64,000 nt of DNA from Zhongshania aliphaticivorans (GTDB lineage Bacteria > Pseudomonadota > Gammaproteobacteria > Pseudomonadales > Spongiibacteraceae): the NCBI RefSeq assembly GCF_001586255.1, contig NZ_CP014544.1, forward strand, positions 2,821,501 to 2,885,500, read 5' to 3'. The stretch's first letter is position 1. Every line of letters starts with the position of its first letter. Both the position numbers and the translations under genes were made by a program. The notes under the pieces were generated by a model, which was given only the letters and a program-made list of their open reading frames with translations, made no database searches and had not been told where the DNA came from. Below are positions 1,471 through 17,332 of the stretch, one piece after another.

Positions 1471-1487
1471 TGGCACATTAAGTGTCA
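1471..1487. promoter_or_regulatory. Predicted operator, TGGCAC-N5-GTGTCA palindrome (site 1)
   Basis: The sequence is TGGCACATTAAGTGTCA. The outer 6-bp arms are complementary apart from one G/T position. It lies 26 bases before the chosen start of the DJ-1-like gene and is embedded in AT-rich sequence (TATATAT before, TTATAT after) that could hold the -10 element. Near-identical sites occur at 9871, 12212 and 17316, each upstream of a gene start. It probably binds a TetR-family repressor; the 14344 product is a candidate, by inference only. Confidence 0.65.
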
Positions 1488-1512
1488 TTATATGAGCCAG
1501 ACGGATCACATC

Positions 1513-2385
1513 ATGAAAAACAAAATAATTATTACCGTCGCAATACTAATTAGCATCGCAGCCTTAAGCCGTTTAGCGCTGCCCACGGCCCTCCACAAAG
1601 CTGGCCTGCACCCAGACTACAACGGCCCGCGCTATGACATCGCCGCCGGTAAAAAAGCCCTTATCATCGGCAGCAATCACGCAACGCTAAATGCACCGGG
1701 CGAAACCGACGGCGATGCCACTGGCGTCGCAATTTCAGAAGTGACCCACCCCTACTACAGCTTTTTAGATGCCGGTATGCTGGTTGATGTCGCCAGTATT
1801 GATGGCGGTGAAATCCCGGTCGACCCAATGAGCCTCAAGTTTTTTATTATCAGCGAGCACGATGAGCGCTATCTTGAAGACCCAACGCTACAAGCAAAAA
1901 TGCAGAATTCCCTCGCCATCGGCAACGTTGATATTAGCCAGTACGATATTATTTTTATCGCGGGTGGCTGGGGCGCCGCCTATGATCTCGGCTATTCGCC
2001 AGTACTCGCCAACAAAATAAGCGAGGCCTACTACGCCGACCACCAGCCGGTAATCGCCGGGGTTTGTCACGGCGTACTCGGACTCATCAATGCCAAAGAC
2101 CGCGACGGTCAGCTACTAATAGCGGGCCGCCGAATGACCGGCGTGACCGACAAGCAGATAAAAGAACTGGGCGTTGCCATAACGCCGATGCACCCAGAAA
2201 CCGAACTCAAAAAAGCGGGTGCACAATTTGAAGCTAAAACCGCCTTTCGCGACTTTTTTGCCACCCACGTGGTCATCGACGATGAAAAACGCTTTGTCAC
2301 TGGTCAGAACCAAAATTCCGGTTTGGAAGCAGCTCATAAAGTGCTGATGCTCCTCGCCCAAAATAGGCATAACGATAAAAAATAA
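1513..2385 (+). CDS. DJ-1/PfpI-type class I glutamine amidotransferase-like protein, membrane-anchored
   Basis: A DJ-1/PfpI-superfamily protein of about 290 residues with an N-terminal hydrophobic segment (residues 3-20), so it is probably exported or anchored. The nucleophile elbow is visible as AGVCHG, Cys185 followed by His, preceded by the FIAGGWG strand and followed by the typical GLIN helix. Relatives include Hsp31-like chaperones/glyoxalases and intracellular-protease-like proteins; which activity applies is unknown. In-frame ATGs at 1450 and 1492 lie upstream, but the first would put the operator inside the gene and the second has no ribosome site, so 1513 is preferred (ACGGA nearby). 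It starts a tight run with the 2404 and 2848 genes. Confidence 0.83.
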   Translation: MKNKIIITVAILISIAALSRLALPTALHKAGLHPDYNGPRYDIAAGKKALIIGSNHATLNAPGETDGDATGVAISEVTHPYYSFLDAGMLVDVASIDGGEIPVDPMSLKFFIISEHDERYLEDPTLQAKMQNSLAIGNVDISQYDIIFIAGGWGAAYDLGYSPVLANKISEAYYADHQPVIAGVCHGVLGLINAKDRDGQLLIAGRRMTGVTDKQIKELGVAITPMHPETELKKAGAQFEAKTAFRDFFATHVVIDDEKRFVTGQNQNSGLEAAHKVLMLLAQNRHNDKK

Positions 2386-2403
2386 ATCTGTTAGGAGATC
2401 ACA

Positions 2404-2838
2404 GTGAAAAACACCCTAGGCTCAAAAATACTGCGCGCAATTGTGTGTATTCCCGCCATTATTTTTATCGTCACCGGTCTGCAATTTCTCTTAGATCCGG
2501 CAGCAGCGGTAAAGCAATTCGGCATGCCGCTATTAGACGGTGTCGGCCGCAGCAGCCAAATCGGTGATATGGCAGGCTTTTTCCTGACCTGCGGGCTATG
2601 TGTGCTTATTGCCGTGAGTACCGGCAAACGCGTTTGGTTTCATCCCGCCGCGATGCTCACCAGCATCACCGCCATGGGCAGAATACTGGCATGGCTGCTC
2701 CACGACGCCGCGCTGGCGATAAACCTAATTGCCCCCGAGATTATTTTCACCGCACTTTTTCTATTTGCCGCCAGCCGTCTACCTGCGCCCGCTGCGCCCA
2801 GTAAAGCCGCGAACCAAGCAACGTCAGACGCCGAGTGA
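2404..2838 (+). CDS. Small four-helix membrane protein, unknown function
   Basis: 144 residues with about four predicted membrane segments: roughly 10-30, 55-75, 80-98 and 110-128. It starts at GTG with a good ribosome site (AGGAG at 2393-2397). The pattern of a short loop with FLLDP...FG..L after the first helix recalls small DoxX/DUF4345-like inner-membrane proteins, but no diagnostic motif is seen. It sits 18 bases after the DJ-1-like gene and 9 bases before the sulfatase, so it belongs to the same transcript. The C-terminus is Ala/Pro-rich and probably cytoplasmic. Confidence 0.72.
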   Translation: MKNTLGSKILRAIVCIPAIIFIVTGLQFLLDPAAAVKQFGMPLLDGVGRSSQIGDMAGFFLTCGLCVLIAVSTGKRVWFHPAAMLTSITAMGRILAWLLHDAALAINLIAPEIIFTALFLFAASRLPAPAAPSKAANQATSDAE

Positions 2839-2847
2839 GGTCAGCCC

Positions 2848-4683
2848 ATGTTTACTAACACTATACGGCCCCGACCCAAGGCCTTGCTGCGCTATACCGT
2901 CGCTGCTGTACTTATCGCTGGACTCAGCACCCAAGTCTGGGCGACTGTGGCGGCCGATCACACGAGCAAACGGCCCAATATTGTCCTGATCTTGGCCGAC
3001 GACTTAGGCTTTACCGACAGCGCGCCCTATGGCAGCGAAATAAGCACCCCGGCATTGTCTGAGCTCGCCGACAACGGCATTAAATTTACCAATTACCACA
3101 CCGCCGCCAACTGCGCGCCGACACGCGCCATGCTCCTGACGGGTGTCGACAACCATCGCGCGGGCGTGTCCAATATTCCAGAGATGGTGCCCCCAGAACT
3201 ACAAAGCCACCCCCACTACCAAGGCACCCTCGGCAATAATATTGTGACGGTGGCGACACTGCTTCAAGACGCGGGCTACCACACGTATATGGTGGGCAAA
3301 TGGCATTTAGGCGCCACACCCGATCTGCTGCCCAGCAGTCGCGGCTTTGAACGCACCATCGCCATGGCCGACTCCGGCGCCGACAACTGGGAACAAAAGC
3401 CCTATTTAGCCATCTACGAAAAAGCCAATTGGTTTGCCGACGGCGAGCGCTACACCCTGCCAGACGACTTTTACTCTTCGCGCTTTATTGTCGACAAAAC
3501 CATTGAGTTTATCGACAGTAATATTAATGACGGTGCGCCCTTTTTTGCCTACCTTCCTTTTCAAGCGGTACACATGCCGGTACAAGCCCCCCAAGAATTT
3601 ATCGACCGCTATATGGGCGTATACGACACGGGCTGGGCAGCCCTGCGGGAACAGCGCCTAAAGCGCGCCGTTGCGCTCGGTATTGTGCCCCAGAGCACCG
3701 CAACCACAATGATGAATACCACCAAGGACTGGGAGCAGCTCAGCGCAGACCAAAAACGCTATGAAGCCAAACGCATGGCCGTTTACGCCGCCATGGTCGA
3801 AGCCATGGACTTCCACATCGCGCGCTTGGTGGCCTATTTAAAACAGACCGGCCAGTACGATAATACTATTTTTATCTTTGCCTCCGACAACGGCAGCGAG
3901 GCAACCGGCCCAGCCAATGCCCAAGCCGCAGCACTGCGCTTTGCGCTGCGCCAACAGGGGTATAGCAACGACTACGACACCCTCGGCCTCAAGGGCAGCT
4001 TTAATTCCCTGAGCCCCAGCTTTGCCAGTGCCTCGGCCTCGCCACTTGCCTATTACAAGTTTCACACTGGCGAGGGCGGCATGCGGGTGCCACTGATTAT
4101 TGCCGGTCAACCCATTGCCGCCAAACGGCACATCAGCCATGCCTTTTCCTTTGTTACCGATATCACTCCGACTATTCTGGAGTTAACGGGGGTAACACCA
4201 CCCCAAGTAAAGCATGGCAAGCTGCGCTATGGTGGCCGCGAAGTCGAAGCCATGATTGGTCGCAGTTTATTGCCGCTAATACGAGGCGACGTTGAGCGTC
4301 ACTACGGTGACGCCGACGAAGACGCCGTGGGCTATGAACTGGCCGGGCACGCCGCGCTGTTTCTTGGCGACTATAAACTGGTGCTCAACAAGCCGCCGGT
4401 CGGTGACAACCAATGGCATTTGTACAATATTGCTACTGATCCCGGTGAAACCACCGACCTAAGTGGCGTTGACGCCCCACGCCTACAACGAATGCTTAAT
4501 CTGTATCAACAGTACGAAAAGCGTAACGACATCCAAGCAATGCCTGCCGGTTTTGTCGGTGCCCGCCAAGTGGCCCTTAATGGTCTGCGCGACCGCTTTG
4601 GCGCCCAGATTATTATCGGCATTATCACCCTTATCATTCTGACGTCTTTCTACGCAATTTATCGGCAAAACCACTATGAGTGA
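2848..4683 (+). CDS. Arylsulfatase (formylglycine-dependent), exported and tail-anchored
   Basis: A 611-residue type I sulfatase. The N-terminal hydrophobic segment (about 13-33) is a signal peptide or anchor. Metal-binding Asp51-Asp52 follow the LILADD strand. Cys89 in CAPTR is the residue that would be converted to formylglycine, and GKWHLG and ASDNGSE follow as in the family. A C-terminal hydrophobic helix (about residues 588-604) predicts anchoring, with the active site in the periplasm. It would release sulfate from organic sulfate esters; the substrate is not readable. It overlaps the following DUF1330-like gene by 8 bases (ATGAGTGA), indicating translational coupling. It is paralogous to the fragment at the left edge. 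Confidence 0.93.
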   Translation: MFTNTIRPRPKALLRYTVAAVLIAGLSTQVWATVAADHTSKRPNIVLILADDLGFTDSAPYGSEISTPALSELADNGIKFTNYHTAANCAPTRAMLLTGVDNHRAGVSNIPEMVPPELQSHPHYQGTLGNNIVTVATLLQDAGYHTYMVGKWHLGATPDLLPSSRGFERTIAMADSGADNWEQKPYLAIYEKANWFADGERYTLPDDFYSSRFIVDKTIEFIDSNINDGAPFFAYLPFQAVHMPVQAPQEFIDRYMGVYDTGWAALREQRLKRAVALGIVPQSTATTMMNTTKDWEQLSADQKRYEAKRMAVYAAMVEAMDFHIARLVAYLKQTGQYDNTIFIFASDNGSEATGPANAQAAALRFALRQQGYSNDYDTLGLKGSFNSLSPSFASASASPLAYYKFHTGEGGMRVPLIIAGQPIAAKRHISHAFSFVTDITPTILELTGVTPPQVKHGKLRYGGREVEAMIGRSLLPLIRGDVERHYGDADEDAVGYELAGHAALFLGDYKLVLNKPPVGDNQWHLYNIATDPGETTDLSGVDAPRLQRMLNLYQQYEKRNDIQAMPAGFVGARQVALNGLRDRFGAQIIIGIITLIILTSFYAIYRQNHYE

Positions 4684-5116
4684 AACCCTGCACGTCGACT
4701 CAATCGAGCCCAGCGCCGAACAGCTAAAAGCCCTGCAAGCTATTGACCCCGAAGGCCCATTTCACTTTGTGAATTTTCTGGCCTTTAAAGACGAGGCTGA
4801 ATATCCGGCGGAGCATAAACTCGCAAAGGCTAAACTCAGCGGCAGCGACGCCTACGACAAATACGGCGCCGTCGCACTTGCGCAAATTATTCAACGCGGC
4901 GGAAGACTCATCACCCTAAATACAGTTGAACTCGAAGTGATTGGATCCTCTGGTCCTTGGCATCGCGTAGCCACCATGGAATACCCAAATATTGCGGCCT
5001 TTCTAGATATGATTGCAGACCCTGTCTACCAACAGGCCTTAGTTCATCGCGATGCGGGGCTCAAAGACACGATCGTCTTAGTGACACGGCCACAACTTAA
5101 AGCGCCCATTGGATAG
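4676..5116 (+). CDS. DUF1330-like small dimeric alpha-beta barrel protein
   Basis: 146 residues with no signal peptide. The core (FHFVNFLAFKDEAEY, then YDKYGAVALAQIIQRGGRLI, then VATMEYPNIAAFLDMIADPVYQQALVHRDAGLKD) follows the beta-alpha-beta layout of DUF1330/ferredoxin-like ABM proteins. In these, a late strand and helix place a Tyr/His/Arg near the cavity. Function is unknown for the family. It is translationally coupled to the upstream sulfatase, so it probably handles or senses the desulfated product, which is an inference from position only. Confidence 0.75.
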   Translation: MSETLHVDSIEPSAEQLKALQAIDPEGPFHFVNFLAFKDEAEYPAEHKLAKAKLSGSDAYDKYGAVALAQIIQRGGRLITLNTVELEVIGSSGPWHRVATMEYPNIAAFLDMIADPVYQQALVHRDAGLKDTIVLVTRPQLKAPIG

Positions 5117-5199
5117 TCTCTGGCCTAGGCAGTCAGGTATCCGACACTTGCTGGGGCTGGCTGAGTAACTGCACTCAAATGAATAGAGAACACTAGCGC

Positions 5200-6519
5200 A
5201 TGTTAAGAAAAATAGTTTTACTAATGACGCTCTGTACCATCGCCGTGGGTATCGTATTGGCTTATCGGACGTGGATCAGCTCGACAATTAGCGATGCCCG
5301 ATTCCAAGAAGTCGCCGATGGCGATGCTCACTTTTGGTTAATGCAGGGCGGCCCCAGCGATCGCAATATGCCCTGCACGATCTACTACAACTTCGACCAG
5401 CCTCTAGACGAAGCGACCGTGCGCCTGCGCATACAAGAGCTCGCAAACACCTACCAAATGTTTCAGCGCAATGTAGTCGAGATCGACGGTCTGCCCTACT
5501 GGCAATCAGTTAAGCCCGATTGGAGCGAAAATTTTCGCGTACTCAATGCAGACGATAACATCGAGGCCATCAGAATCGAAACCGACGCGCGGCTCTCCAA
5601 AGCAGCAAAACCCGGCGAGGGCCTGCCACTGTTTCGCGCCTATCTGTCAGCTGACCGCCGCCAGCTCATTTTTATATGGCATCATGTAATCTCCGACCTA
5701 GAAGGCATGTTTAACAAACACGCTAAACACCTATTCGCCGAACAGGGCGAGCGCACACATTTTGGCTACCAAATAGACGCCAACACCAAAACCGCTAGCA
5801 GCGCAGACACCTTAAAGCCCCTACGCAAATTACTAAATACCAACCGCTCCCTTGGCTTTAAGGGTAGCGGCTTCGAGGTCGAAAAGTTTGTATTGCCCGT
5901 ACAAGATCAAGCGCTAAATCGTCTTGCTCAGCGAGCGGGCTTGTCTATGAGTGATATTTTTTCCTTCATTACCCTGCGCGCAGTCACCCAATACCATACC
6001 GCTTTAGGAGATGCCGAGCATGTCGACCTCGTCCCCGTCTTAACCCCACTCAGCCTGCGCACAAGTGCCCTAGACCTTGACGAAGGCAATAACCGCGCAA
6101 CAAAGCAGTTTCCCTTTGTATTCCCCGAAGAAAACATAGCGGATATGTACACGCGTATTATTGCCTTGGCGCCTAGCGACTCATCCTATAATACCGCAGG
6201 CAAAAGCATGAAAATCGCCCGGCAATTCTCGTTACTAGAACCGATACTACGTAAAATTGCCATGCCAGATTATATCTCTAACTATTTCCCACTGGCGGAC
6301 ATCCCACTGGCCATTCATGATGCAAAACTCGTCAGTCACGCGCTAAGAGTGCCCATGGTACCTTTTGAACGCAGTAAATTTGCCTGGTCGAATTACAATG
6401 GCGAGGTCCAATTATTTCTGCATATCGACCCACAACTTGTCGATTCAGCGCTAATGCGCGCGTCATTTGAGAAAGCCGTTACAGAAGTGCTGCAATTTTT
6501 GGAAAATAGATCGCGATGA
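5200..6519 (+). CDS. Membrane-anchored condensation-domain/acyltransferase-like protein
   Basis: 439 residues with one N-terminal membrane segment (about 4-22). The chloramphenicol-acetyltransferase/condensation-fold signature is visible as HHVISD at 161-166 (HHxxxD), preceded by the LIFIWHHV strand. The later part, with SRYDLVPVLTPLSLR-like strands and an FPLADIPLAIHDAKL segment, fits the second half of the fold. This superfamily (NRPS condensation domains, PapA, WES/DGAT) makes ester or amide bonds with acyl-thioesters. It stands alone, without carrier or adenylation domains, and the anchor is unusual. Codon use resembles its neighbours. It follows the sulfatase operon by 83 bases; substrate unknown. 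Confidence 0.7.
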   Translation: MLRKIVLLMTLCTIAVGIVLAYRTWISSTISDARFQEVADGDAHFWLMQGGPSDRNMPCTIYYNFDQPLDEATVRLRIQELANTYQMFQRNVVEIDGLPYWQSVKPDWSENFRVLNADDNIEAIRIETDARLSKAAKPGEGLPLFRAYLSADRRQLIFIWHHVISDLEGMFNKHAKHLFAEQGERTHFGYQIDANTKTASSADTLKPLRKLLNTNRSLGFKGSGFEVEKFVLPVQDQALNRLAQRAGLSMSDIFSFITLRAVTQYHTALGDAEHVDLVPVLTPLSLRTSALDLDEGNNRATKQFPFVFPEENIADMYTRIIALAPSDSSYNTAGKSMKIARQFSLLEPILRKIAMPDYISNYFPLADIPLAIHDAKLVSHALRVPMVPFERSKFAWSNYNGEVQLFLHIDPQLVDSALMRASFEKAVTEVLQFLENRSR

Positions 6520-6613
6520 CAATCGTGTTTTAAATTAAACAATTGCCCCTAAAATGCTCCTATTTTGCAAAAACAGAATATGAGTCAAAAGACCTTAATA
6601 GCAGGAGAAAATA

Positions 6614-7255
6614 ATGATTAAAGTTTATGGCGTACACGGCTCGCCCTTCGTGCGTAAAGTATTTATCGCGCTGGACATAAAGGGTATTCCCTATGAAGTC
6701 GTGCAGCAAATGCCCTTTTCCCGCGACGCCGAATATCTCAAAATCAACCCCCTCGGTAAAGTCCCCGCACTGGTCGACGACGACCTCATACTTTGCGACT
6801 CAAAAGTAATTTGCCAGTATTTAGAAGACGCCTACCCCGAGGTTGCACTCTACCCCAAAGATCCGAAAGAACGGGCACGGGCACACTGGTACGAAGACCT
6901 CTGCGCCGGTCGCGTCGCCGAGCTTGCCTCTGGTATATTCTTCCAGCGCTTTATGCGGCCCTTTGTCCTCAAGCAAGAAGCCGACGAAGTACTGGTCGCC
7001 AAAATCATCGCCCGCGACCTGCCGCCGATGCTCGATTATTTAGAATCGCAAATCCCCGCCGACGGTTTTATCTTTGGCGACTTCATGATGGCCGATCTTA
7101 GCGTCATCAGTCCTTTTATAAACGCCGCCTACGCTGGCTACCAAGTCGATGCCACGCGTTGGCCTGCAGTGGCCGGATTGATCGCAAGAGTGAAAGAGCA
7201 ACCGCAGGTTAAAGCGGTATTGGCTAAAGAGGCTAAGGCCCTGGGATTAGGGTGA
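6614..7255 (+). CDS. Glutathione S-transferase family protein
   Basis: 213 residues with the two-domain GST layout. The N-terminal thioredoxin-like domain (VHGSPFVRKV..., NPLGKVPALVDDD, LCDSKVICQYLE) has the cis-Pro of the VPAL motif and the Ser of DSK/ES that binds the glutathione gamma-glutamyl group. An all-helical C-terminal domain follows, with FGDFMMADLS as the N-capping box. It starts with a strong ribosome site (GCAGGAGAAAATA before ATG) and ends the plus-strand block. It probably conjugates or isomerises an electrophilic intermediate, but the substrate is unknown. Confidence 0.9.
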   Translation: MIKVYGVHGSPFVRKVFIALDIKGIPYEVVQQMPFSRDAEYLKINPLGKVPALVDDDLILCDSKVICQYLEDAYPEVALYPKDPKERARAHWYEDLCAGRVAELASGIFFQRFMRPFVLKQEADEVLVAKIIARDLPPMLDYLESQIPADGFIFGDFMMADLSVISPFINAAYAGYQVDATRWPAVAGLIARVKEQPQVKAVLAKEAKALGLG

Positions 7256-7308
7256 TTGCTTAGAACGGCTCAGGTCTCATCTTTTACATCTATGTAAAGT
7301 TTGGGACT

Positions 7309-8025
7309 TTAGCCGGTTTGTTCATCCACGTCCCGTTGAATAAGCTCAGCAACATAATCACCCCACACCGTGTAAGCCTCAGCACCTGGATGAAAGCCAT
7401 CTGCCGCGATCCCAGCAAGATCACCCGAATACGGAATAGCCACGTAGATAGACGAACGCTCGCTTTCCGCCACAGCGCTCATCAACACATTAAATTGCTT
7501 CGCTCGCAAACCCAACCACCAACGCAATGGATTTGGCAGCGCAGGGAACAGATGCATAGGTGGAATGCAAGACAGATAGACCTTACGCACACCGAATTTT
7601 TCAGTGAGCAGCTGAACGATAAGCCGCACATTTTCAGCCCAAGCGCTCGCCCTATTTAGCCCGGTCACATCGTTTACACCAATAGAAACCACCGCGGTAT
7701 CAAACTCTTCCTGAGGCATTGCATGGAGCCTGTCCAGTAATTGACGAGAGGTGTCACCGGATTGCGCAATAAGTTTCCATCTCACTGCACTGGTTTTGCT
7801 GAGCGCTGCGACAAGTCTACCAGACAGTGCCTGCTGCTGATGGTCAACGCCAACACCCGCAGCCGCCGAGTCGCCAACAATGAGTAGACTCAGCCCTTTG
7901 CCCTGTCCCAATTGCCCGTAACGATGTCCCTCCGGTTCCGGAAGTTTAGGTGTCACGCGCTTAACGTGCTTGCCCTGAAGAAAAAGAACGGGGCCTATCA
8001 AGATTAACGCAAGGTGGTATAGCAC
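7309..8025 (-). CDS. SGNH/GDSL-type esterase
   Basis: 238 residues. The four SGNH blocks are present: GDSAAAGVG with the nucleophilic Ser, the block II Gly region (IAQSGDTS), GVND with the catalytic Asn, and DGFHPG with Asp and His near the C-terminus. A short N-terminal hydrophobic stretch (LYHLALILIGPVLFL) suggests an anchor or signal. The start is GTG, supported by AGGAAAATAA just upstream. It lies directly downstream of the minus-strand sulfatase (about 60 bases), so the pair is probably co-transcribed. It could remove an acyl group from the same substrate, which is an inference. Confidence 0.87.
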   Translation of the reverse strand: MLYHLALILIGPVLFLQGKHVKRVTPKLPEPEGHRYGQLGQGKGLSLLIVGDSAAAGVGVDHQQQALSGRLVAALSKTSAVRWKLIAQSGDTSRQLLDRLHAMPQEEFDTAVVSIGVNDVTGLNRASAWAENVRLIVQLLTEKFGVRKVYLSCIPPMHLFPALPNPLRWWLGLRAKQFNVLMSAVAESERSSIYVAIPYSGDLAGIAADGFHPGAEAYTVWGDYVAELIQRDVDEQTG

Positions 8026-8084: not shown

Positions 8085-9752
8085 TCAATTCGGCCAATAA
8101 AGCGTCTCATCGCTCGGCGTTACAGGCTCATCCAAGGTCTTATCAATCGCCACCGGTATCTCAGCAACATAGGGGTAAAGGACTGGAGTTCTACCGGCTT
8201 GATGTTCTTGCAGCATCGCGGTGAGCTCAGCCACGACGTCTGGCTGCTGAGCGGCTAAATTAATTTGCTCGGTGGGGTCTACGGACAAGTCGAAAAGCCA
8301 CTGTTTTTTCGGGTTCTCAGATACTTGCAGTTTCCAGTCTTTGTGACGAACGACTTGGTAGTAACCGCTTTGCCAAAACAAGGTGTCTCTAGCCCACTCC
8401 CCGGTATGCTCGCCCATTGCCAGTGGCAATAAATTTGCGCCGTCGATGATTCGATCTTCCGGTAGCTTAGCTTGGGCGGCAGCGACCAAGGTTGGCAGAA
8501 AATCGATATGGGCGGCAGGTGTGTCGATGCTGGTGTTTCGCGCTATATGTGCTGGCCAGCGCATAAATAAGGGTACGCGAATACCGCCTTCAAACATGGT
8601 GAGTTTCCACCCCCGATACGGGGCATTAATATCTGGTATGCCGATGTAGCCAGCGCCGCCGTTGTCGCTGGAGAACACCACAATGGTATTGTCAGAAAGG
8701 CCTTCTTCTTTCAGCGTTGCTAAAATACGGCCAACACTGCGGTCTACTGCCCGTACCATGGCGGCGTATACCCTTGCCCGGTGAGGCTTAATGTCGCCAA
8801 CGGCTTCATAGTCTTCCCGAGTTGCCTGCAAAGGTGTGTGCGCACCCCAATGAGCGAGGTAGAGAAAGAAGGGACGATTTTTATTGGCTTTAATGATTTT
8901 TATCGATTCATCGGTCCAGTAATCAGTAAGGTAGCTCTTAGGTTCAAAGACCGGACCGCCATCATTAAAGGCGGCAGCGTAGCGCATTTTTGCCCACAGA
9001 AATTGGTCGATTGGATCAAAGTCAACTTTGGCATTGACCACATCAGGATGGTCAACCGGCAGATACAAGCCGCTGTGCATTAATAAACTTTGCTCAAAGC
9101 CCTGCTCTTCTGGGCTAAAACCTTTGCCTCGACCCAGATGCCATTTACCAATATGAGCGGTGTAGTAACCGCGATCGCGCAGGATTTCGGCAAGGGTAAT
9201 TTCAGAACTCGGCAGACCTTGCTCGTCAAAGGATGGGATTTTGTCCGCACCGGCTTTATTGTAAATGCTCGGCGGCAGGCCGTTATCATGGGACGAGGCA
9301 ATCATGGTTGCCATTGCCCCCATACCGTCTGGTGTCGGCGTAAATTCAAATCCGGTACGTGTTGGGTAGCGGCCGGTTAAGAGCATGGCCCGCGACGGCG
9401 CGCAGGTCCCTGCGCCGGAATAGGCCTGGCTAAAGTTAGCGCCACTGGCGGCCAGCTCATCAATATTGGGGGTTTGCACCTGGCCATTGGCCAGACCGCC
9501 GCCATAGGTAGATATGTCGTTAATACCTAGGTCATCGGCCAAAATCACAATGACATTGGGCGGACGATCTTGGCTCGCCGCGTCTGCCTGCGCTGGCCCC
9601 TGCTGCCAGTGTATGTCGCGGTTGGGCGCAACCTCATAAGCTCTGGCGGTCTGGAACTTCACCAAGGCCAACATAAGGTCGATTCGGTTCAGCCATGCGA
9701 TGCCCAATGCGGCGGGAATCACGATAAAGGAGGCAATTATTATTTTTTTCAT
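8085..9752 (-). CDS. Arylsulfatase (formylglycine-dependent), N-terminally anchored
   Basis: 555 residues. The signal anchor covers about residues 4-21. Asp73-Asp74 end the VILADD strand; Cys117 in CAPSR is the formylglycine site and Arg121 the stabilising arginine. GKWHLG, HWGAHTPLQ and SSDNGGAG complete the sulfatase core, and WKLQVSENPKKQWLFDLSVDPTE is the typical C-terminal subdomain. Unlike the 2848 sulfatase it has no C-terminal helix. It has its own promoter region with operator site 2 about 120 bases upstream. No formylglycine-generating enzyme is encoded in the window, so one must act from elsewhere in the genome. Confidence 0.93.
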   Translation of the reverse strand: MKKIIIASFIVIPAALGIAWLNRIDLMLALVKFQTARAYEVAPNRDIHWQQGPAQADAASQDRPPNVIVILADDLGINDISTYGGGLANGQVQTPNIDELAASGANFSQAYSGAGTCAPSRAMLLTGRYPTRTGFEFTPTPDGMGAMATMIASSHDNGLPPSIYNKAGADKIPSFDEQGLPSSEITLAEILRDRGYYTAHIGKWHLGRGKGFSPEEQGFEQSLLMHSGLYLPVDHPDVVNAKVDFDPIDQFLWAKMRYAAAFNDGGPVFEPKSYLTDYWTDESIKIIKANKNRPFFLYLAHWGAHTPLQATREDYEAVGDIKPHRARVYAAMVRAVDRSVGRILATLKEEGLSDNTIVVFSSDNGGAGYIGIPDINAPYRGWKLTMFEGGIRVPLFMRWPAHIARNTSIDTPAAHIDFLPTLVAAAQAKLPEDRIIDGANLLPLAMGEHTGEWARDTLFWQSGYYQVVRHKDWKLQVSENPKKQWLFDLSVDPTEQINLAAQQPDVVAELTAMLQEHQAGRTPVLYPYVAEIPVAIDKTLDEPVTPSDETLYWPN

Positions 9753-9870
9753 TGAGCGATCCTTTTGCCAAATCGAACAGTGCTATGCCACTAAACCTTA
9801 GTTTGAACTGGTGACTTAGGACTATCTGCTCCACGCTTGGCGTTAAATTAAAACAGCGACAGCATTATTA

Positions 9871-9887
9871 TGGCACTTATAGTGTCA
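9871..9887. promoter_or_regulatory. Predicted operator, TGGCAC-N5-GTGTCA palindrome (site 2)
   Basis: The sequence is TGGCACTTATAGTGTCA. It lies between the minus-strand cytochrome gene (3' end at 9957) and the minus-strand sulfatase start at 9752. It shares both arms exactly with site 1 while the central five bases differ, as expected for a dimeric repressor site. Confidence 0.65.
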
Positions 9888-9956
9888 TTTTATTCAAGTA
9901 CTGTAAACACCCCTAGAAATCCGCCCAGAGGCGAGCGTCTAATTTATCATCCGTCA

Positions 9957-12065
9957 CTATTTGATTAGGGCGTTTCCGGCGTCGCGACCACTGCGCTTTT
10001 GCAGGTAAAGCGATAGCAAATCGCTCGTTAAGGGCGAGGCATGGCCTCGACTCGCGACGGTCTTTAACACGGTAATGGCCTCGTCGAGTTGCCCGCGATT
10101 TTCCAAAGCAACCGCATAGCCATAGGCGAACTCAGGGCGATGGGGTGCGAGATCAAAAGCCTGCTTTAAACCGGCCAGCGCCCGCGCATAATCTTTTGCC
10201 CGAACCCAATACAAGCCAAGTTGGTACGCCGCATCCGCAGATTTAACATCTGCCTGCTGAGCCTCTTGCAACCAACTCAATTCCGCATCACTGCCCCTTG
10301 TCAGCATGGCCAGTTGCAGATACGGGTACACAAACGCCGCATCCAACTTAATAGCCTGCTGATATAGCTCAGCGGCTTCCGCCAGACGCCCTCGCGCTAA
10401 TTGGTAGTTGGCAAAATTAGCGGCAATTTGGGGGCTGTCCAGGTGGGTGTTCATCAGCGACTCATACTCCGTAAACAGCGCTGCCAGCTGAGCCGACTGC
10501 GCTTGACTCAGCTGCGCGGGTGCGGTACCGGCCAGCACCGGAGCCAATTCCATTCGCACCATTTTACTGTTGTCTGCCAATAGCGCGGACAGGCGGCGCC
10601 AGCGCTCCGCACTTGGCGCTTGCGCAAATGCCCGAACGCCAGCTGCTCTCACCAGCGGTGATGGGCTTTGAAGTTTGCTGAGCAACACATTTTGCTGGGC
10701 ATAGTCGTAGGGTGACAGCTGCGCTAATAAACTGGCCTCACGTATTGGCGACAAGGTATCAACAATGCTTTGGTAAAGTGCCATATTTGCCACCCCGCCG
10801 TCCGCCAATGTGGCAAAGTCCCGAGTCTTTTTCTGCGATGGACTCGTGACTTTGGGTAAGCGCTCCGACAACTTCGCCATTGGCATTTCAGCATGGCAGC
10901 TGCGGCAGGCATCGGGACTGCCCAATGATTTACTTAAAGCCGGATCAGGAATCACAAAGCGGTGATCCCGACGCGCATCAACGCCCATATACACGGTTGC
11001 CGGCATATGGCAGTCAACACAACCCGCCGAGCCAGTCTGGTGGCGGTGATGGCTGGGCACGGCAAAGGTATCGGCCTTGTGGCATTGCATGCACACGCCA
11101 TCGCCCTCGGCTCGCAGTTTCGCGCTGTGGGGCTCGTGGCAATTGCTGCACACGACGCCTGCGGCATGCATACGGCTCTGCAGGAATGAACCTAGCTCAA
11201 AGACTTCATCGCGAATTTGGCCGTCTTGGTAGTAAAAGGGCTGGTGCGGTAAAACCGGACTAACATGGTCAAAGAGCTCAGCCTTAGGATGCCAGCTGCC
11301 AATTTGCTCACTGCGAGTGTGGCATTGGGCGCAGCTTGAAAGCTGCGCGCCCACCGGCGGCGATTCACGACTGGCGATGGCTTGGTCTTGATGCCAAGCC
11401 CACTGCCCCCCATCTTTTAAACTGGCGGCAAAACCAGCATTTAGCGTATTTGGCTTAGCGCCAGCCGCCCAAGCGAGGTGTGCTTTTGCGTCGCCATGAC
11501 AGGCCGCGCAGGACACATTCACTTCATCAAAGCGCGTTGCGAAACTATCGCTGGCCGGATCATAAGCCTTTACTAAATTGGTGGAGTGGCAGCTCGCGCA
11601 GGAGGTATTCCAAGTAAAACCAGGGTGATCCCAGTTAAGATCGGATTCCAGCGCATACCAGCGCTGGCCGCCTGCAGATTGTGGTCGCGTATCCCAGGCA
11701 ACGGGAATCGCCTGGTAGCGGCCTCTTGGCAAACGCGCAAGATATTGTTGCAGGGGCGTGAAACCAAATACGTAGTCGATAGCATAGGTTTCGGCTGTTG
11801 CGCCCTCACCGATACTCACTTGATAACCGAGTTCGCCAATCGTAAAGCGAAACGCTAAGTCCTTATAGCGGGTAACTGAGCCGTCAAACACCCCCGCAAC
11901 GGTTTCCTGCGTCGCGGGCAACATGGCCTTGGCGTGGTGGGACTGTTCCCAGAGTGCGACTTCTTTTGCATGGCAAGCCCCACAAGCGCTATCGGCCACG
12001 GCCAAGGGCGCGTATAAAATAGCGAAAAGACACAATATTTTTAATCGTAACCAAGGGGTATTCAA
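9957..12065 (-). CDS. Octaheme c-type cytochrome with C-terminal TPR repeats
   Basis: About 702 residues, periplasmic. Eight CxxCH haem-binding motifs are present: CGACH, CASCH, CAACH, CAQCH, CSNCH, CMQCH, CVDCH and CRSCH. A long TPR-type region follows (for example NYQLARGRLAEAAELYQQAIKLD, and AYQLGLYWVRAKDYARALAGLKQAFDLAP). A HEAT-like stretch (SPLVRAAGVRAFAQAP) lies between. The best start is TTG at 12065, behind GAGGAAAAGG, giving a clean signal peptide (LKILCLFAILYAPLAVADS). The upstream ATG at 12146 lacks a ribosome site. Such proteins resemble cytochrome c554/NrfA-like scaffolds with unknown redox partners. It diverges from the 12273 GST gene across operator site 3. Confidence 0.88.
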   Translation of the reverse strand: MNTPWLRLKILCLFAILYAPLAVADSACGACHAKEVALWEQSHHAKAMLPATQETVAGVFDGSVTRYKDLAFRFTIGELGYQVSIGEGATAETYAIDYVFGFTPLQQYLARLPRGRYQAIPVAWDTRPQSAGGQRWYALESDLNWDHPGFTWNTSCASCHSTNLVKAYDPASDSFATRFDEVNVSCAACHGDAKAHLAWAAGAKPNTLNAGFAASLKDGGQWAWHQDQAIASRESPPVGAQLSSCAQCHTRSEQIGSWHPKAELFDHVSPVLPHQPFYYQDGQIRDEVFELGSFLQSRMHAAGVVCSNCHEPHSAKLRAEGDGVCMQCHKADTFAVPSHHRHQTGSAGCVDCHMPATVYMGVDARRDHRFVIPDPALSKSLGSPDACRSCHAEMPMAKLSERLPKVTSPSQKKTRDFATLADGGVANMALYQSIVDTLSPIREASLLAQLSPYDYAQQNVLLSKLQSPSPLVRAAGVRAFAQAPSAERWRRLSALLADNSKMVRMELAPVLAGTAPAQLSQAQSAQLAALFTEYESLMNTHLDSPQIAANFANYQLARGRLAEAAELYQQAIKLDAAFVYPYLQLAMLTRGSDAELSWLQEAQQADVKSADAAYQLGLYWVRAKDYARALAGLKQAFDLAPHRPEFAYGYAVALENRGQLDEAITVLKTVASRGHASPLTSDLLSLYLQKRSGRDAGNALIK

Positions 12066-12211
12066 CAGACCTTTTCCTCTGTACGCGACAGTCGCTTTGT
12101 CGCACTCGAACTTAGCACCACTATAGTCACTGCAGATAGATGCCATAAACGTATTGTTAATTCGCTTTTAACGGCGCTGAAGCGGTAGCGGCCATCGCTC
12201 CCGCATTATAT

Positions 12212-12228
12212 TGACACAGAATGTGCCA
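12212..12228. promoter_or_regulatory. Predicted operator, TGACAC-N5-GTGCCA (site 3, reverse orientation)
   Basis: The sequence is TGACACAGAATGTGCCA, i.e. TGGCACATTCTGTGTCA on the other strand. It lies in the divergent region between the cytochrome and GST genes. It overlaps a TTGACA -35-like hexamer (12211-12216), with TTATTT 17 bases further on as a possible -10 for the GST gene. A bound repressor would block that promoter and could control both directions. Confidence 0.65.
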
Positions 12229-12272
12229 CAATGTTATTTTCCAGCGACGATTATCGCTCACAAGGCGCAAGC

Positions 12273-13451
12273 ATGAGTACACCTTATAAGCTTTACGGCA
12301 TCCCCGCCTCGCTGTATACCGCGAAAGCGCGTAGCTACTTGCGCAAGCAAAAAATCGACTTTGTGGAGTATGCGGTATCTGATCCGTACTACCAAAAAAA
12401 CATTATTCCGCAGCTAGGGCGAATGATTATGCCCGTACTTGAAGCGCCTAACGGCGAGATTATTCAAGACAGCGCAGACATTATTCGCTACCTCGAAAAC
12501 GTGCACGCAAGCTTATCGCCAAGCCTGCCGAAAACACCGCTATTACAAGCTGTTGCCCATCTTTTTGAGTTATACGGTGGTGAGGGTTTACTCCGCCCCG
12601 CCATGCATTATCGCTGGAGTTTTGACGATGTGAATTTACACTACCTCCATTCAGAATTCGCTTGCTTGGCGCCACCTGGCACCGACGATGCCAGCTACCA
12701 ACAGATTTTTGACTTCAGCAGTGGCCTCATGCGCAAGGCCGCGCTTTCCTTTGGGGTAAATGAAAATAGCGCGCCGCTTGTTGAATCTTCCTACCGCGAA
12801 TTTTTAGATCTATTCTCAGCCCATTTGCGGCAACACCCCTATTTACTCGGCGCTAAGCCGACGCTGGGCGACTACGCGCTTATGGCGCCGCTCTACGCTC
12901 ACTTGTACCGCGACCCTAAGCCAGGCCAATTGATGCGTCAGCATGCACCGCTGGTGGCGCGCTGGGTAGAGCGGATGAATGCCCCAGAGAATAACTGGGC
13001 AGACCACTGTGCAGACCAAGCGGAATTTGAAGTCGACAATGAACTGCCAGATACCCTCAAATCGCTAATGCATTACATCGCCGTGGACTTCCTACCTGAG
13101 ATGTCCGCACATATTCAATTCACCAACAACTGGCTTGCCGAAAGGCCAGATCTTAAATCAGGCAGCAATGGCTGCGACAAGCCCAGCCAACGCTTTATAG
13201 GCAATGCCGAATTTGCATGGCGGGGCATAAAGCTACGCACCGCGGTACTGCCATATCGCTTTTATTTATTACAAAATTTGCAGGATCATTTTGACTCGGC
13301 GCCGCAGACAGATAAAGCCCTCATCCAAAACGCTTTCAAAGCCTGCGGCTTAGCTGACTTACTCACACTGCGAGTAACACGGCGCGTTGAGCGTCACAAT
13401 CATCTAGAAGTGTGGGGTAACCCCCTCCACTCAGTTTGCACGGCAAAATAA
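12273..13451 (+). CDS. Glutathione S-transferase-like protein with long C-terminal domain
   Basis: 392 residues, much longer than a typical 200-230-residue GST. The N-terminal thioredoxin-like domain reads YKLYGIPASLYTAKARSYLRKQKIDFVEY, then MPVLEAPNGEIIQDSADIIRYLE, with the cis-Pro and the Ser/Asp glutathione-contact box. The helical domain has GAKPTLGDYALMAPLYAHLYRDP. A further 130-residue tail (from about residue 265) is not assigned. Start 12273 (AAGGCGC upstream) is preferred over an ATG at 12231 that directly abuts the operator. It is followed 59 bases later by a second GST and is probably co-transcribed with it. Confidence 0.83.
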   Translation: MSTPYKLYGIPASLYTAKARSYLRKQKIDFVEYAVSDPYYQKNIIPQLGRMIMPVLEAPNGEIIQDSADIIRYLENVHASLSPSLPKTPLLQAVAHLFELYGGEGLLRPAMHYRWSFDDVNLHYLHSEFACLAPPGTDDASYQQIFDFSSGLMRKAALSFGVNENSAPLVESSYREFLDLFSAHLRQHPYLLGAKPTLGDYALMAPLYAHLYRDPKPGQLMRQHAPLVARWVERMNAPENNWADHCADQAEFEVDNELPDTLKSLMHYIAVDFLPEMSAHIQFTNNWLAERPDLKSGSNGCDKPSQRFIGNAEFAWRGIKLRTAVLPYRFYLLQNLQDHFDSAPQTDKALIQNAFKACGLADLLTLRVTRRVERHNHLEVWGNPLHSVCTAK

Positions 13452-13510
13452 ACGCGCAGCGCCATTATTTTAGCTAAAAGTTATTTACCCGCAATTTTGG
13501 AGTCACAATA

Positions 13511-14194
13511 ATGATCGACCTTTATACCGCCCCCACCCCCAACGGTCACAAAGCCTCCTGCACCTTGGAAGCGCTTGGTTTTGAATACAATACCCATTTT
13601 GTAAACATCACCGAGGGCGAACAGAAAAAGCCGGAATTTTTAGCAATTAATCCTAACGGGCGAATTCCCGCCATTGTCGACCGCGACTTGGGCGACTTCC
13701 CGATTTTTGAATCTGGCGCCATTATGATTCACCTCGCCGAAAAGGCGGGACGCTTACTGCCAACAGACGCTAAAGGCCGTGCAATGGTCATGCAATGGCT
13801 TATGTTTCAAATGGGCGGCGTAGGGCCAATGATGGGCCAAGCGAATGTATTTTTTCGCTATTTCCCTGAAAAAATACCTGCGGCAATTGATCGCTACCAA
13901 AATGAAAGTCGCCGCTTATTCGAAGTATTAGACAAACGCCTGAGCGAAAACCAATGGCTTGCCAAAGATTACTCAATAGCCGATATCGCCAATTGGTGCT
14001 GGGTACGCACCCACAAATGGTCTGGGGTATCTATCGACGGCCTCGATCATTTAGGACGCTGGCTAAATACCATGGGCGAGCAGCCCGGCATGCAAAAAGG
14101 CATTGAAGTGCCGTTTAGTCTCGATAATTTATTAGAAGACAAAGACGCCCAAAAGAAATTTACCGACAACGCAAATAAGCTCTTACAAAAATAG
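13511..14194 (+). CDS. Nu-class (YfcG/YghU-like) glutathione S-transferase
   Basis: 227 residues. The N-terminus ([23 protein letters not shown]) closely follows the YfcG pattern, with the Thr-Pro-Asn glutathione-binding turn. [11 protein letters not shown] carries the cis-Pro and [13 protein letters not shown] the gamma-glutamyl contact. The C-terminal domain has [17 protein letters not shown], a family hallmark. Known relatives are disulfide-bond reductases that bind two glutathiones. The ribosome site is TTTTGGAGTCACAATA. Cytoplasmic, and probably in one transcript with the preceding GST. Confidence 0.9.
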
Positions 14195-14205
14195 GCACCC
14201 GGTAA

Positions 14206-14260
14206 ACTAGTGGCATACCTCAGTCAAATAGACAGTAACAATGCCACTAGTTACAATGCC
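14206..14260. promoter_or_regulatory. Repeat-rich region upstream of tetR, probable autoregulatory operator
   Basis: A perfect 12-bp inverted repeat (AACTAGTGGCAT at 14205-14216 and its complement at 14241-14252) frames a 24-base spacer. Within it, 14230-14246 read on the minus strand is TGGCATTGTTACTGTCT, a degenerate form of the regulon palindrome that most resembles site 4. Two direct copies, AGTAACAATGCC (14234) and AGTTACAATGCC (14249), are 15 bases apart. There is no T-tract, so a terminator is unlikely. It lies about 85 bases before the TetR start. Confidence 0.5.
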
Positions 14261-14343
14261 CTAAATTCAAAGCCCGCGTAGTAATACAGCGTCTCATTGC
14301 GCCTATCGCGGCTCCAACAATCATACTCGCTAAGCGATTAATT

Positions 14344-14934
14344 ATGCCTAAAGACGCAACACCAGTAGAAAGTGATGGCCGCCGTCAACGCACCGAGCGC
14401 AGCCGCAGCGCCATCATTAATGCCGCCCTCGAATTAATCGAAGAAGGCGTACTGATCGCGACGGCTCAACAAATTACCGACCGCGCCAACGTCGGCATTC
14501 GCACCTTTTTTCGCCACTTTGAAGACATGGGCGCCCTCGCCCAAGCAGTTGATGAAAGTATTCGCGGGCAATACGAAGCGGCCATGCTCGACGCCGACCG
14601 CAGCGGCACACTTGAGGAGCGTATTCTGCATGCGGTGGAGCGTCACGCCGAGGTCTACGAGCAAAACTACAATATAATCTTAGCGACGACTGCCCAGCGC
14701 TGGCGCCTTGAAGTACTACAGCAAAACTACGCCCGCGTGCAAAAAGGCCTGCGCAAAGATCTTGATAACTGGCTACCCGAACTCAAGACCATTGCCTCGT
14801 CACAACGCGAAGCCATAGATGCTATTGCCTCTTTTGAGATGTGGCACCGGCTTAGAGAACATCAGGGCCTAAGCGTCAAAACCTGTATAGAGATAATTAA
14901 CGGCCTGCTACTAAACCTGACCCAAAGCGCTTAA
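14344..14934 (+). CDS. TetR-family transcriptional regulator
   Basis: 196 residues. The N-terminal helix-turn-helix domain spans about residues 18-65: the RSRSAIINAALELIEEG helix, then TAQQITDRANVGIRTFFRHFEDMGALAQAV with the recognition helix and the F..HF segment. The C-terminal two thirds form the ligand and dimer domain with no recognisable ligand motif. It sits in the middle of the cluster of genes that carry the 17-bp palindrome, and repeat-rich DNA precedes it, so it is the best candidate for the regulon repressor. That link is inference. It is followed by the SDR gene after 66 bases. Confidence 0.88.
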   Translation: MPKDATPVESDGRRQRTERSRSAIINAALELIEEGVLIATAQQITDRANVGIRTFFRHFEDMGALAQAVDESIRGQYEAAMLDADRSGTLEERILHAVERHAEVYEQNYNIILATTAQRWRLEVLQQNYARVQKGLRKDLDNWLPELKTIASSQREAIDAIASFEMWHRLREHQGLSVKTCIEIINGLLLNLTQSA

Positions 14935-15000
14935 ACACCTCGACTAGCAATATTTGGTCGTAAGGTGTAAGCCCTCATCGTAAAACAAGGATCATATAAT

Positions 15001-15765
15001 ATGAGCACTAATCTGTTTGATTTAACTGGAAAAGTGGCGCTGGTTACCGGCGCAAGCCGTGGCATCGGCGAAGCCATTGCCCGACTTTTGGCCGAGCAAG
15101 GTGCCCATGTTATTGTCTCTAGCCGTAAAATTGACGACTGTCACACCGTCGCCAATAGTATTATTGCCGCAGGTCACCGCGCGGAAGCCTTGGCCTGCCA
15201 CGTTGGTGATATGGAACAAATTGCCGATATTTTTCAAACAATTCGTAAGCAACATGGCAAGCTCGATATCCTAGTGAATAACGCTGCCGCCAACCCCTAC
15301 TTCGGCGACGTGCTCGATACCGACTTGGCGGCTTACAATAAAACGGTAGACGTAAATATACGCGGCTATTTCTTTATGAGCGTCGAAGGCGGCAAAATCA
15401 TGCGCGACAATGGCGGTGGCGTCATTATTAACACCGCATCGGTCAACGCGCTACAGCCCGGTGATATGCAGGGCATTTACTCTATTACCAAGGCCGCCGT
15501 GGTCAATATGACCAAGACCTTTGCCAAAGAATGCGCGAAACACAATATCCGCTGCAACGCGATATTGCCCGGTTTAACAAAAACCAAGTTCGCCAGCGCA
15601 CTCTTTACTCACGATAAAATATACGAAGCCGCCATGGAAAAAATCCCCATGCGTCGCCACGCCGAACCACAGGAAATGGCCGGCACCGTGCTGTATTTGG
15701 CATCCAACGCCAGCAGCTATACCACCGGCGAATGCATTGTTGTTGACGGTGGTCTAACGCTTTAA
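15001..15765 (+). CDS. Short-chain dehydrogenase/reductase (SDR), classical type
   Basis: 254 residues with all classical SDR elements: TGASRGIG (16-23) for NAD(P) binding, NNAA (93-96), Ser147 and the catalytic YSITK (Tyr160, Lys164). PGLTKT follows, and a C-terminal Gly-rich strand (TGECIVVDGGLTL). The Arg and Lys after the first glycines and after SS (SSRK) suggest NADP preference. It is probably a 3-oxoacyl- or alcohol/ketone oxidoreductase; the substrate cannot be read. It is translated behind the tetR gene and ends just before a convergent minus-strand gene. Confidence 0.92.
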   Translation: MSTNLFDLTGKVALVTGASRGIGEAIARLLAEQGAHVIVSSRKIDDCHTVANSIIAAGHRAEALACHVGDMEQIADIFQTIRKQHGKLDILVNNAAANPYFGDVLDTDLAAYNKTVDVNIRGYFFMSVEGGKIMRDNGGGVIINTASVNALQPGDMQGIYSITKAAVVNMTKTFAKECAKHNIRCNAILPGLTKTKFASALFTHDKIYEAAMEKIPMRRHAEPQEMAGTVLYLASNASSYTTGECIVVDGGLTL

Positions 15766-15777
15766 ACAAGCAAGGGA

Positions 15778-15805
15778 TTCGCCGCGCCGTGACAAGCGCG
15801 GCGAA
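15778..15805. terminator. Stem-loop between convergent genes (probable bidirectional terminator)
   Basis: A perfect 10-bp stem, TTCGCCGCGC and its complement, with an 8-base loop. It lies between the SDR stop and the stop of the convergent DsbA-like gene. There is no clear T-run on either side, so termination strength is uncertain. Confidence 0.6.
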
Positions 15806-15807
15806 AC

Positions 15808-17181
15808 TCAGCCAGCCTTGAGCAAGCGCTGAATTTCGCGGCTAAATAACCAAAGGCGATCTTGACCCCACAGCGCCATCACTTGATTACCGTCCTTATC
15901 TAACAAACGAAAACTCGGCACGCCCCATAAACCAGCCTCGTACATAGCCAGCCGATTTTGTTCGACCATCGCTTCCCAGCGCGTATCCGCCAATTGCTCC
16001 TTAGCCATCTGCCAGTCCAGTCCCGCCTGCTCAACAACCTCCTGCAAACCACTCAATTTATTAGTATTCACCCCTTCCGCAAAGGCCAACCGCAAAAAGC
16101 TGGAGAGCAGAGCATTGCCCTTGCCCTGCTCACACGCCCAGGGATAGATTGCGTAACAGCGCCGCACTGGGTCACCAATAGGGTCGTAAATAGGGCCGAA
16201 TGGCACGCCGCTCGCCCGCGCCTCACGACCGCAATCAGTCATAATATAAGCCCCCTTGACTCGCGTTGCCGGAACACCGCGCATGACCATTGGCAATACC
16301 GGCCGCACTACAAGCTTAACGCCACTGTCTGCGGCCAGTTTTAGTGCCCGATCAAAGATGATGGCGGTATAAGGGCTGCGCAAAGAGGGGTAAATTTCAA
16401 AGGTCAGCGAGCCATTATCTTTTAGCTCGCCGATTTCTACCGCTTTACGTGGTGCTAACGGCGCGGCATCTGGCTGCTTATCGACTCCTAGCGTCGCCAG
16501 TCGGGCTTCTAAATGGTAGAGACGGTCAACACCCCAATACCACTCCTTGCCATAGTAAAACATCGCGCCGGAATAATGACCGAGCACAGCGCGTTGCGCA
16601 TTACCCTGCTGAATACGCGCCGCGGTGACTTCAGGGCTTGCAGCGCCTAGCCTCTCAGCAAGGGCGGCCAGCGTCGTCTGATCGTGATTCCATAGCGCTG
16701 TGCTCACCTCAACGAGGCAATCAATAAACCCCTGCGCAGTTTGCCTAGCCAGTATCGCCTGCGCTTGATCCACAAGCGCCTTAGGCGGCTGGGTGTTGCC
16801 ATGGGGAAAATGCAAACCGTAGTGTGGCGCAATGTGAATGGCATCTTGCCGAGCAAGATCACTCAGCAATTGGGGCTCAGGGGCATTTGCGTCTTGTGAC
16901 GCGGATACCAAATGGCAGACCACCGTCACGTCGTAGCGCTTACTGATTGCCGACAATAACTGCGCGCTGAGGTGGCTGTAGCCATCATCAACTTGATGAA
17001 AATATTCCACAATATGTGGAGAGCCAGCGCTATGACGACGGCGCTCAAATTTAGCGCGCAGTTTAGCTTGGTAGCGCAAACTCGCAAGCCTTGACATAAA
17101 CAGTTTTGAGGTCAGCCAGCGATATAGTCGGCTCGGTTCAGAGCTTGATACGCCGCCCTGATTTTTAAAATTTTCAGACAT
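15808..17181 (-). CDS. Double DsbA-like (2-hydroxychromene-2-carboxylate isomerase/kappa-GST type) protein
   Basis: 457 residues without signal peptide. Two thioredoxin-fold DsbA-like halves are visible. The first begins IVEYFHQVDDGYSHLSAQLL (about 58-77). The second begins LTFEIYPSLRSPYTAIIFDRAL (about 250-271) and ends with GVPSFRLLDKDG, the cis-Pro loop, and GQDRLWLF, both typical of HCCA isomerase/kappa-GST relatives. Neither half has a CxxC redox pair, so a disulfide role is unlikely and glutathione-dependent isomerase-type chemistry is more plausible. It diverges from the lipoprotein hydrolase gene across operator site 4. The two-domain fusion is unusual. Confidence 0.78.
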   Translation of the reverse strand: MSENFKNQGGVSSSEPSRLYRWLTSKLFMSRLASLRYQAKLRAKFERRRHSAGSPHIVEYFHQVDDGYSHLSAQLLSAISKRYDVTVVCHLVSASQDANAPEPQLLSDLARQDAIHIAPHYGLHFPHGNTQPPKALVDQAQAILARQTAQGFIDCLVEVSTALWNHDQTTLAALAERLGAASPEVTAARIQQGNAQRAVLGHYSGAMFYYGKEWYWGVDRLYHLEARLATLGVDKQPDAAPLAPRKAVEIGELKDNGSLTFEIYPSLRSPYTAIIFDRALKLAADSGVKLVVRPVLPMVMRGVPATRVKGAYIMTDCGREARASGVPFGPIYDPIGDPVRRCYAIYPWACEQGKGNALLSSFLRLAFAEGVNTNKLSGLQEVVEQAGLDWQMAKEQLADTRWEAMVEQNRLAMYEAGLWGVPSFRLLDKDGNQVMALWGQDRLWLFSREIQRLLKAG

Positions 17182-17315
17182 GGTCGACCTCTTTCATCCA
17201 CTGTCACGTTATAGCGCGACAATCATTATTATTCAGTCGAAAAGCAACTTTTAACACAGCACATAAGTCGGCCATTGACTCCTTTCTTTACAAATGACAT
17301 GTTACCCGCAAGTAT

Positions 17316-17332
17316 TGACACTCACAATGCCA
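17316..17332. promoter_or_regulatory. Predicted operator, TGACAC-N5-ATGCCA (site 4, reverse orientation)
   Basis: The sequence is TGACACTCACAATGCCA, i.e. TGGCATTGTGAGTGTCA on the other strand. It lies in the divergent region between the double DsbA-like gene and the metallo-hydrolase gene. It overlaps TTGACA (17315-17320), with TATTCT at 17340 as a possible -10. One arm differs from sites 1-3 by one base (TGGCAT). Confidence 0.6.

Follow-up and report, generated by a model that had tools for sequence, protein, structure and literature searches.

TetR-family proteins such as KstR and FadR are known as repressors of catabolic genes. The PA3973 regulon is of the same kind, in which a regulator with a TetR_N domain and an all-helical fold uses palindromic operators and has its own gene among its targets (PMC9736018). 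Here we describe a similar arrangement in a 64,000-nucleotide stretch of Zhongshania aliphaticivorans (contig NZ_CP014544.1, positions 2,821,501 to 2,885,500; hereafter the window, to which all plain positions refer), where a palindromic element recurs in the promoter regions of a cluster of sulfatase, glutathione S-transferase (GST), cytochrome and metallo-β-lactamase (MBL)-fold hydrolase genes around a TetR-family gene at 14344. The locus differs from the PA3973 regulon in its gene set and in its operator, TGRCA-N7-TGYCA, which is not the PA3973 motif SAAGRNMTGAACG (PMC9736018).

By its domain and predicted fold, the 14344 product is an ordinary TetR-family protein: its TetR_N helix-turn-helix domain scores above the curated Pfam cut-off, and its structure model has the TetR-type all-helical fold. 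EthR, EthR2, RcdA and DesT are among its closest folds in the PDB, at only 11-20% identity among the solved structures listed. We consider it highly probable that a dimer of this protein would bind the palindrome WWTGRCAY-N5-RTGYCAWW at four nearby promoters and, with less strength, at the promoter of tetR itself, and would keep the catabolic gene set off until a ligand releases it. No description of this cluster, motif or regulon was found in the literature searched (open-licence papers only), and we regard the locus as a predicted regulon that is new but of a familiar kind, and whose comparative support is unusually good.

The palindromic element in the window and its genome

The first-pass annotation had written the element as TGGCAC-N5-GTGTCA and had placed it at 1471, 9871, 12212 (reverse) and 17316 (reverse, with a TGGCAT arm), each in a promoter region, with a degenerate copy before the tetR gene and no match in the remaining 46 kb. 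All of these copies were recovered at those positions (Table 1), and the best copy outside 1471-17332 has two mismatches (44904). According to the gene calls, the four main sites are located between genes; the one at 1471 falls inside the longest open reading frame (ORF) call (from 1450), but precedes the likely DJ-1 start (1513) by 25 bp. Its matrix score is 34.6, this site being itself among those that trained the matrix. The site at 12212 ends 2 bp before the first ATG of the long GST gene (12231) and about 45 bp before the likelier start (12273); outside this site and the degenerate copy at 14230, the operators are about 25 to 135 bp upstream of likely start codons. When up to three mismatches are allowed, the window shows no enrichment of the pattern (54 observed versus 47.8 expected), the signal being confined to the class with no or one mismatch.

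In the whole genome (4,204,359 bases), TGGCAYN5GTGTCA has five matches, four of them in the cluster, and the pattern read backwards has one. The fifth match (L001) sits inside a long ORF, which we take to resemble a catalase-peroxidase. Under random placement, the rough chance of finding four of five matches within 15.9 kb is 1e-6. Hence the random spread over the genome that the first-pass annotation had named as a possible refutation was not found, in a scan made with IUPAC patterns instead of a matrix. The unflanked degenerate palindrome TGRCAYN5RTGYCA occurs at nine positions genome-wide, equal to its control (nine), while the WW-flanked form occurs at three, all in the cluster (control, one); the site at 12212 fails one flank base. 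Since the unflanked palindrome equals its control, it is the clustering and the flanks that carry the signal. The element is better described as WWTGRCAY-N5-RTGYCAWW, a symmetric palindrome of 21-25 bp that fits better than the original form.

Further candidates were set aside. A candidate site at 487 (matrix score 14.0), unchanged in the near relative G002, is just before a hydrolase start at 506 and may be a ribosome-binding region; a long inverted repeat around 14209-14255 is not conserved in G002; and a palindrome at 12677, inside the GST gene and with one mismatch in G002, was taken as chance.

Recurrence of the element in related genomes

TetR relatives at E ≤ 1e-15 were found in 17 of 96 genomes, the window's own genome counted (TetR+ genomes). 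The flanked palindrome has 36 copies in these 17 genomes and 32 in the 79 TetR- genomes (hand tally; reversed control 3 and 13, respectively). In G001 (five of five), G002 (four of four) and G019 (six of six; a genome 89% complete), all flanked sites, 15 copies in total, are within 25 kb of the tetR orthologue. In G002 the sites lie before the four promoters known from the window, and its degenerate tetR-promoter copy differs in one base with the consensus preserved. In G001 and G019, sites stand before the genes of sulfatase 2, the long GST and another GST that is divergent from tetR, as well as before those of a TonB receptor and a zinc-type dehydrogenase; in G019 an acyl-CoA ligase gene is preceded by one, too. 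The divergent cytochrome/GST pair has a site between its genes in G001 and G002, and in G019 the site is before the GST gene. Sites before MBL genes recur in loci of Halieaceae and SAR92/Porticoccaceae.

Two genomes have more scattered sites. Those of G023 are spread across contigs, with six of seven in promoter positions (including ones before a DUF1330-like/sulfatase 2 pair and an acyl-CoA dehydrogenase) and one inside a gene; in G073, three of four are before an SDR gene, before a GST-like gene or near tetR, and one is inside a gene. Combined, 9 of 11 sites in these genomes are in promoter positions, and the genes behind several of these are of the cluster types or acyl-CoA genes. One G006 site (C1:2999782) is 63 kb away from tetR and falls in the early part of a called ORF.

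A more distant set consisted of the best 80 of 445 confirmed stretches around TetR homologues (1.33 Mb; TetR identity 99 to about 35%). The flanked palindrome has 46 copies in 35 of these 80 loci, many of which are near-copies, compared with a mean of 0.06 and a largest value of 2 for 200 palindromes with permuted half-sites. The non-redundant set (TetR identity below 80%; 57 loci, 58 with the window) retains 30 flanked sites in 23 of the 57 loci, against a mean of 0.04 and a largest value of 7 for 180 permuted palindromes, the largest control probably sharing letters with the real half-site. Intergenic WWTGNCAN7TGNCAWW occurs 47 times across the 58 loci and each of ten control pairs not at all. 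Of the 58 loci, 16 have TGRCA-N7-TGYCA at most 350 bp upstream of tetR, while no other gap between 0 and 20 yields more than one; the control half-site with the highest count in this comparison, TRGCA (12 loci), shares TGGCA with the real one. Such sites before tetR at one fixed gap extend to about 35% TetR identity, including loci titled Alphaproteobacteria and Myxococcota.

Over all stretches examined, 136 sites have a matrix score of at least 15, of which 11 fall within called ORFs and 3 lack a nearby gene start. The genes directly downstream of the remaining sites fall into similarity groups of MBL (23), long GST (22), tetR (19), sulfatase (17), a DUF1330-related membrane protein (14), TonB-type (8) and DUF2855-type (7) genes, followed by smaller groups of DsbA-like, FadB-like, DJ-1, dehydrogenase, SDR and acyl-CoA ligase genes. 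Related species contribute to these counts, and adjacency to tetR was the reason for fetching most of the loci. The group names are based on one or a few scanned members; the DUF1330 likeness of the 14-member group was seen by BLAST in 2 of the 14, and three members have no Pfam hit. Eight loci were omitted from this listing as copies of fetched genome stretches, two of which (L086, L087) had no substitute there. The first-pass interpretation of a shared operator marking one regulon is supported in part, and the sites do recur upstream of orthologues in relatives; its original wording was too narrow for the operator, and the predicted regulon in relatives is wider than the four promoters of the window.

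The TetR protein as the probable reader and the rival explanations

The first-pass annotation had proposed a TetR repressor that would sense a sulfated or aryl compound, and comparative support for its link to the sites comes from proximity, from the sites before tetR genes, from presence and absence, and from covariation. Among orthologues of the MBL and sulfatase 2 genes, a site (p ≤ 0.01) precedes 15 of 33 entries from TetR+ genomes and none of 16 from TetR- genomes (Fisher p 0.0008, the entries not being independent); among these 15, four contributed to the matrix and another two are near-copies of those. Without the matrix-training genomes and G002, the counts are 9 of 25 and 0 of 16 (p 0.007). 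Three more TetR+ entries show a TGTCA variant at p about 0.02, and in some TetR+ cases with no site at the gene itself, it stands in front of the gene before it in the run (MBL in G001 and G019, sulfatase 2 in G023). According to the structure model, TetR residue 51 directly precedes the third helix (52-58), beside the recognition helix. Base 3 of the half-site is T in 22 of 40 half-sites where this residue is not Gly, versus 5 of 114 with Gly51. The clearest case is in Luminiphilus/Halieaceae, where L088, L089 and L104 (Ser51) have TGACA before tetR versus TGCCA in eight Gly51 sister loci, several of which are near-copies of each other.

Sequence comparison shows that the predicted operators are present, conserved and coupled to the tetR gene; the proposed regulon is well supported, and the 14344 TetR is very probably the reader. 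The bound dimer would block RNA polymerase at the GST and tetR promoters, because the site at 12212 overlaps a TTGACA hexamer (12211) and that at 14230 overlaps a TAGACA hexamer. Repression by covering of promoters is what we infer from site position and family precedent.

Several observations weigh against this interpretation. The window's own tetR-promoter copy is degenerate, an exact TGRCA-N7-TGYCA is absent upstream of tetR in 42 of the 58 non-redundant loci, and 7 of the 17 TetR+ genomes (G003, G005, G008, G029, G049, G066 and G088) have no main-form flanked site, although several of them carry TGTCA half-site variants. The TetR- genomes still hold about 2.5-fold more flanked sites than their reversed control, so that a similar box may have other readers, or some TetR relatives may score below the cut-off. 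One of the 15 site-bearing TetR+ entries (MBL of G066) is weak and 397 bp distant, and the target orthologues in TetR- genomes are more distant (at most 59% identity), which confounds divergence with site loss. Residue 51 changed only three to four times on the tree, the covariation amounting to two to three independent changes, and a paired covariation test was not significant (p 0.5; too few pairs). Promoter-like consensus matches are overall hardly above chance (21 versus 18.2).

The operators could be real and read by another regulator encoded elsewhere, with the TetR as a mere passenger of the cluster. The weak own-promoter copy and the flanked sites in some TetR- genomes would be consistent with this, whereas the fixed gap of the sites directly before tetR genes down to about 35% identity, the coupling by presence and absence, and the recognition-helix covariation all point to the TetR; in addition, a Pfam scan of the 19 ORFs in window positions 1-20 kb (3 of the 19 without any family) found no regulator family besides TetR. 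We regard a different reader as quite improbable. Overlap with a -35 hexamer is the usual place of a repressor site, and the sites at 12212 and 14230 do overlap -35-like hexamers. This argues against a TetR that is mainly an activator, or dual-acting, instead of a plain repressor, which seems unlikely, even though the position of the sites relative to promoters rests on weak consensus matches and some TetR-family proteins also activate, LuxR being an example (PMC9736018).

That the sites are no operators at all, but sigma-54 type promoters, hairpin terminators or products of chance, is in our estimation very improbable. The sigma-54 promoter consensus is TGGCAC-N5-TTGCW, and the TGGCAC half-site equals its -24 box; however, the GC of the -12 box is absent and the sites read GTGTCA in its place. 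A terminator-like hairpin is scored as well for the copy at 9870-9888, but no common T run was seen by eye behind the palindrome in the listed sites. The element is a conserved two-fold palindrome, and chance is excluded by the permuted-palindrome, gap and intergenic controls.

Gene content and possible substrate

Table 1. Predicted operators and genes of the cluster (window positions).
Feature	Position	Strand	Remarks
Operator 1	1471..1487	+	exact TGGCAC-N5-GTGTCA match; upstream of DJ-1/DUF4345/sulfatase/DUF1330 run; same place in G002
DJ-1/PfpI-type protein	1513..2385	+	N-terminal hydrophobic stretch
DUF4345-like protein	2404..2838	+	21 bits, under Pfam cut-off (26.5)
Type I sulfatase 1	2848..4683	+	CAPTR motif; Pfam Sulfatase domain
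DUF1330 protein	4676..5116	+	Pfam
Type I sulfatase 2	8085..9752	-	CAPSR motif; Pfam; best-scoring solved relatives are carrageenan sulfatases
Operator 2	9871..9887	+	exact match; 118 bp upstream of sulfatase 2 gene; orthologue preceded by a site in G001, G002, G019
Octaheme c-type cytochrome with TPR repeats	9957..12146	-	eight CXXCH motifs, as first annotated
Operator 3	12212..12228	-	exact match; between divergent octaheme cytochrome/TPR and long GST genes
Long GST-fold protein	12231..13451	+	406 aa as called
GST, disulfide-bond oxidoreductase type	13511..14194	+	below NCBIfam cut-off
Degenerate operator	14230..14246	-	three mismatches; matrix score 11.1; 97 bp upstream of tetR; overlaps promoter-like hexamer TAGACA at 14229
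TetR-family regulator, proposed operator reader	14344..14934	+	Pfam TetR_N 28.4 bits (cut-off 24); model pLDDT 87 with TetR-type neighbours
Short-chain dehydrogenase (SDR)	15001..15765	+	Pfam scan
DsbA-like protein	15808..17181	-	Pfam scan
Operator 4	17316..17332	-	one mismatch (TGGCAT); between divergent DsbA-like and MBL-fold hydrolase genes; also in G002
MBL-fold hydrolase	17382..18449	+	N-terminal signal-like stretch; HFHSDH motif; best solved relative labelled arylsulfatase (8gyg)

Both type I (formylglycine) sulfatases carry the CxPS/TR motif within the Sulfatase domain. The MBL-fold product, which has the HxHxDH motif, aligns with the arylsulfatase 8gyg across residues 52-327 (E 1.2e-25), and this match ranks above those to PNGM-1 and RNase Z; by this likeness it is possibly an MBL-type arylsulfatase. 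The score of sulfatase 2 against carrageenan sulfatases recalls marine algal-polysaccharide sulfatase clusters. Unlike those clusters, the 19 ORFs scanned with Pfam include no glycoside hydrolase or polysaccharide lyase, and the loci of relatives have acyl-CoA enzymes and TonB receptors.

To the sulfatases, GST-fold enzymes, SDR and octaheme cytochrome of the window, the relatives' loci add TonB receptors, acyl-CoA ligases, dehydrogenases and hydrolases, and this whole set would suit a sulfated lipophilic compound better than a polysaccharide. The ligand that frees the TetR might most likely be an intermediate of the degraded compound, perhaps a desulfated lipophilic acid or its CoA ester, because the window encodes two type I sulfatases and a putative MBL-fold arylsulfatase, and the loci of relatives encode TonB receptors, acyl-CoA ligases and a FadB-like enzyme. 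As for the substrate, sterol sulfates, chlorosulfolipids and aryl sulfates would be guesses. A broader reading, which we put forward tentatively and hold to be rather doubtful, is that of a TetR subfamily (Spongiibacteraceae, Halieaceae, SAR92/Porticoccaceae, Microbulbifer, some Alphaproteobacteria, Myxococcota) that might control uptake and breakdown of one class of sulfated lipophilic compounds, a class common in the sea and with no described regulon; its own operator code would be TGRCA-N7-TGYCA, moving towards TGTCA when helix residue 51 is not Gly.

The proposed regulon would join poorly annotated sulfatase, GST, DUF and cytochrome genes of several marine bacterial groups into one testable pathway with a sensor, and an inducer identified with just one reporter would hint at what the entire gene set acts on. 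The changes in site and helix would also offer a natural series for studying how TetR proteins shift in DNA specificity.

Among the DUF proteins, one of DUF2855 recurs as a cluster neighbour in G019 (L063:10788-11888) and as a direct operator neighbour in L131 (8692-9780), with six similar proteins. No paper naming DUF2855, and none joining DUF1330 with sulfatase and GST, was found in the open-licence literature. Further along the window, positions 42488-62758 hold a second catabolic-looking block (two P450s, AraC-type regulators, a thiolase-like protein, an iron-containing alcohol dehydrogenase, an AMP ligase, two TonB receptors and a sulfotransferase), in which no operator copy at zero or one mismatch was found. 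Within the cluster, a 439-aa protein (5200-6519) has no Pfam or NCBIfam match and was not found at 1e-10 in the otherwise collinear G002 stretch; its HHVISD stretch presumably recalls a condensation/acyltransferase motif. Finally, an Amidoligase_2 family protein (20056-21069) is encoded directly downstream of an AI-2E-type transporter.

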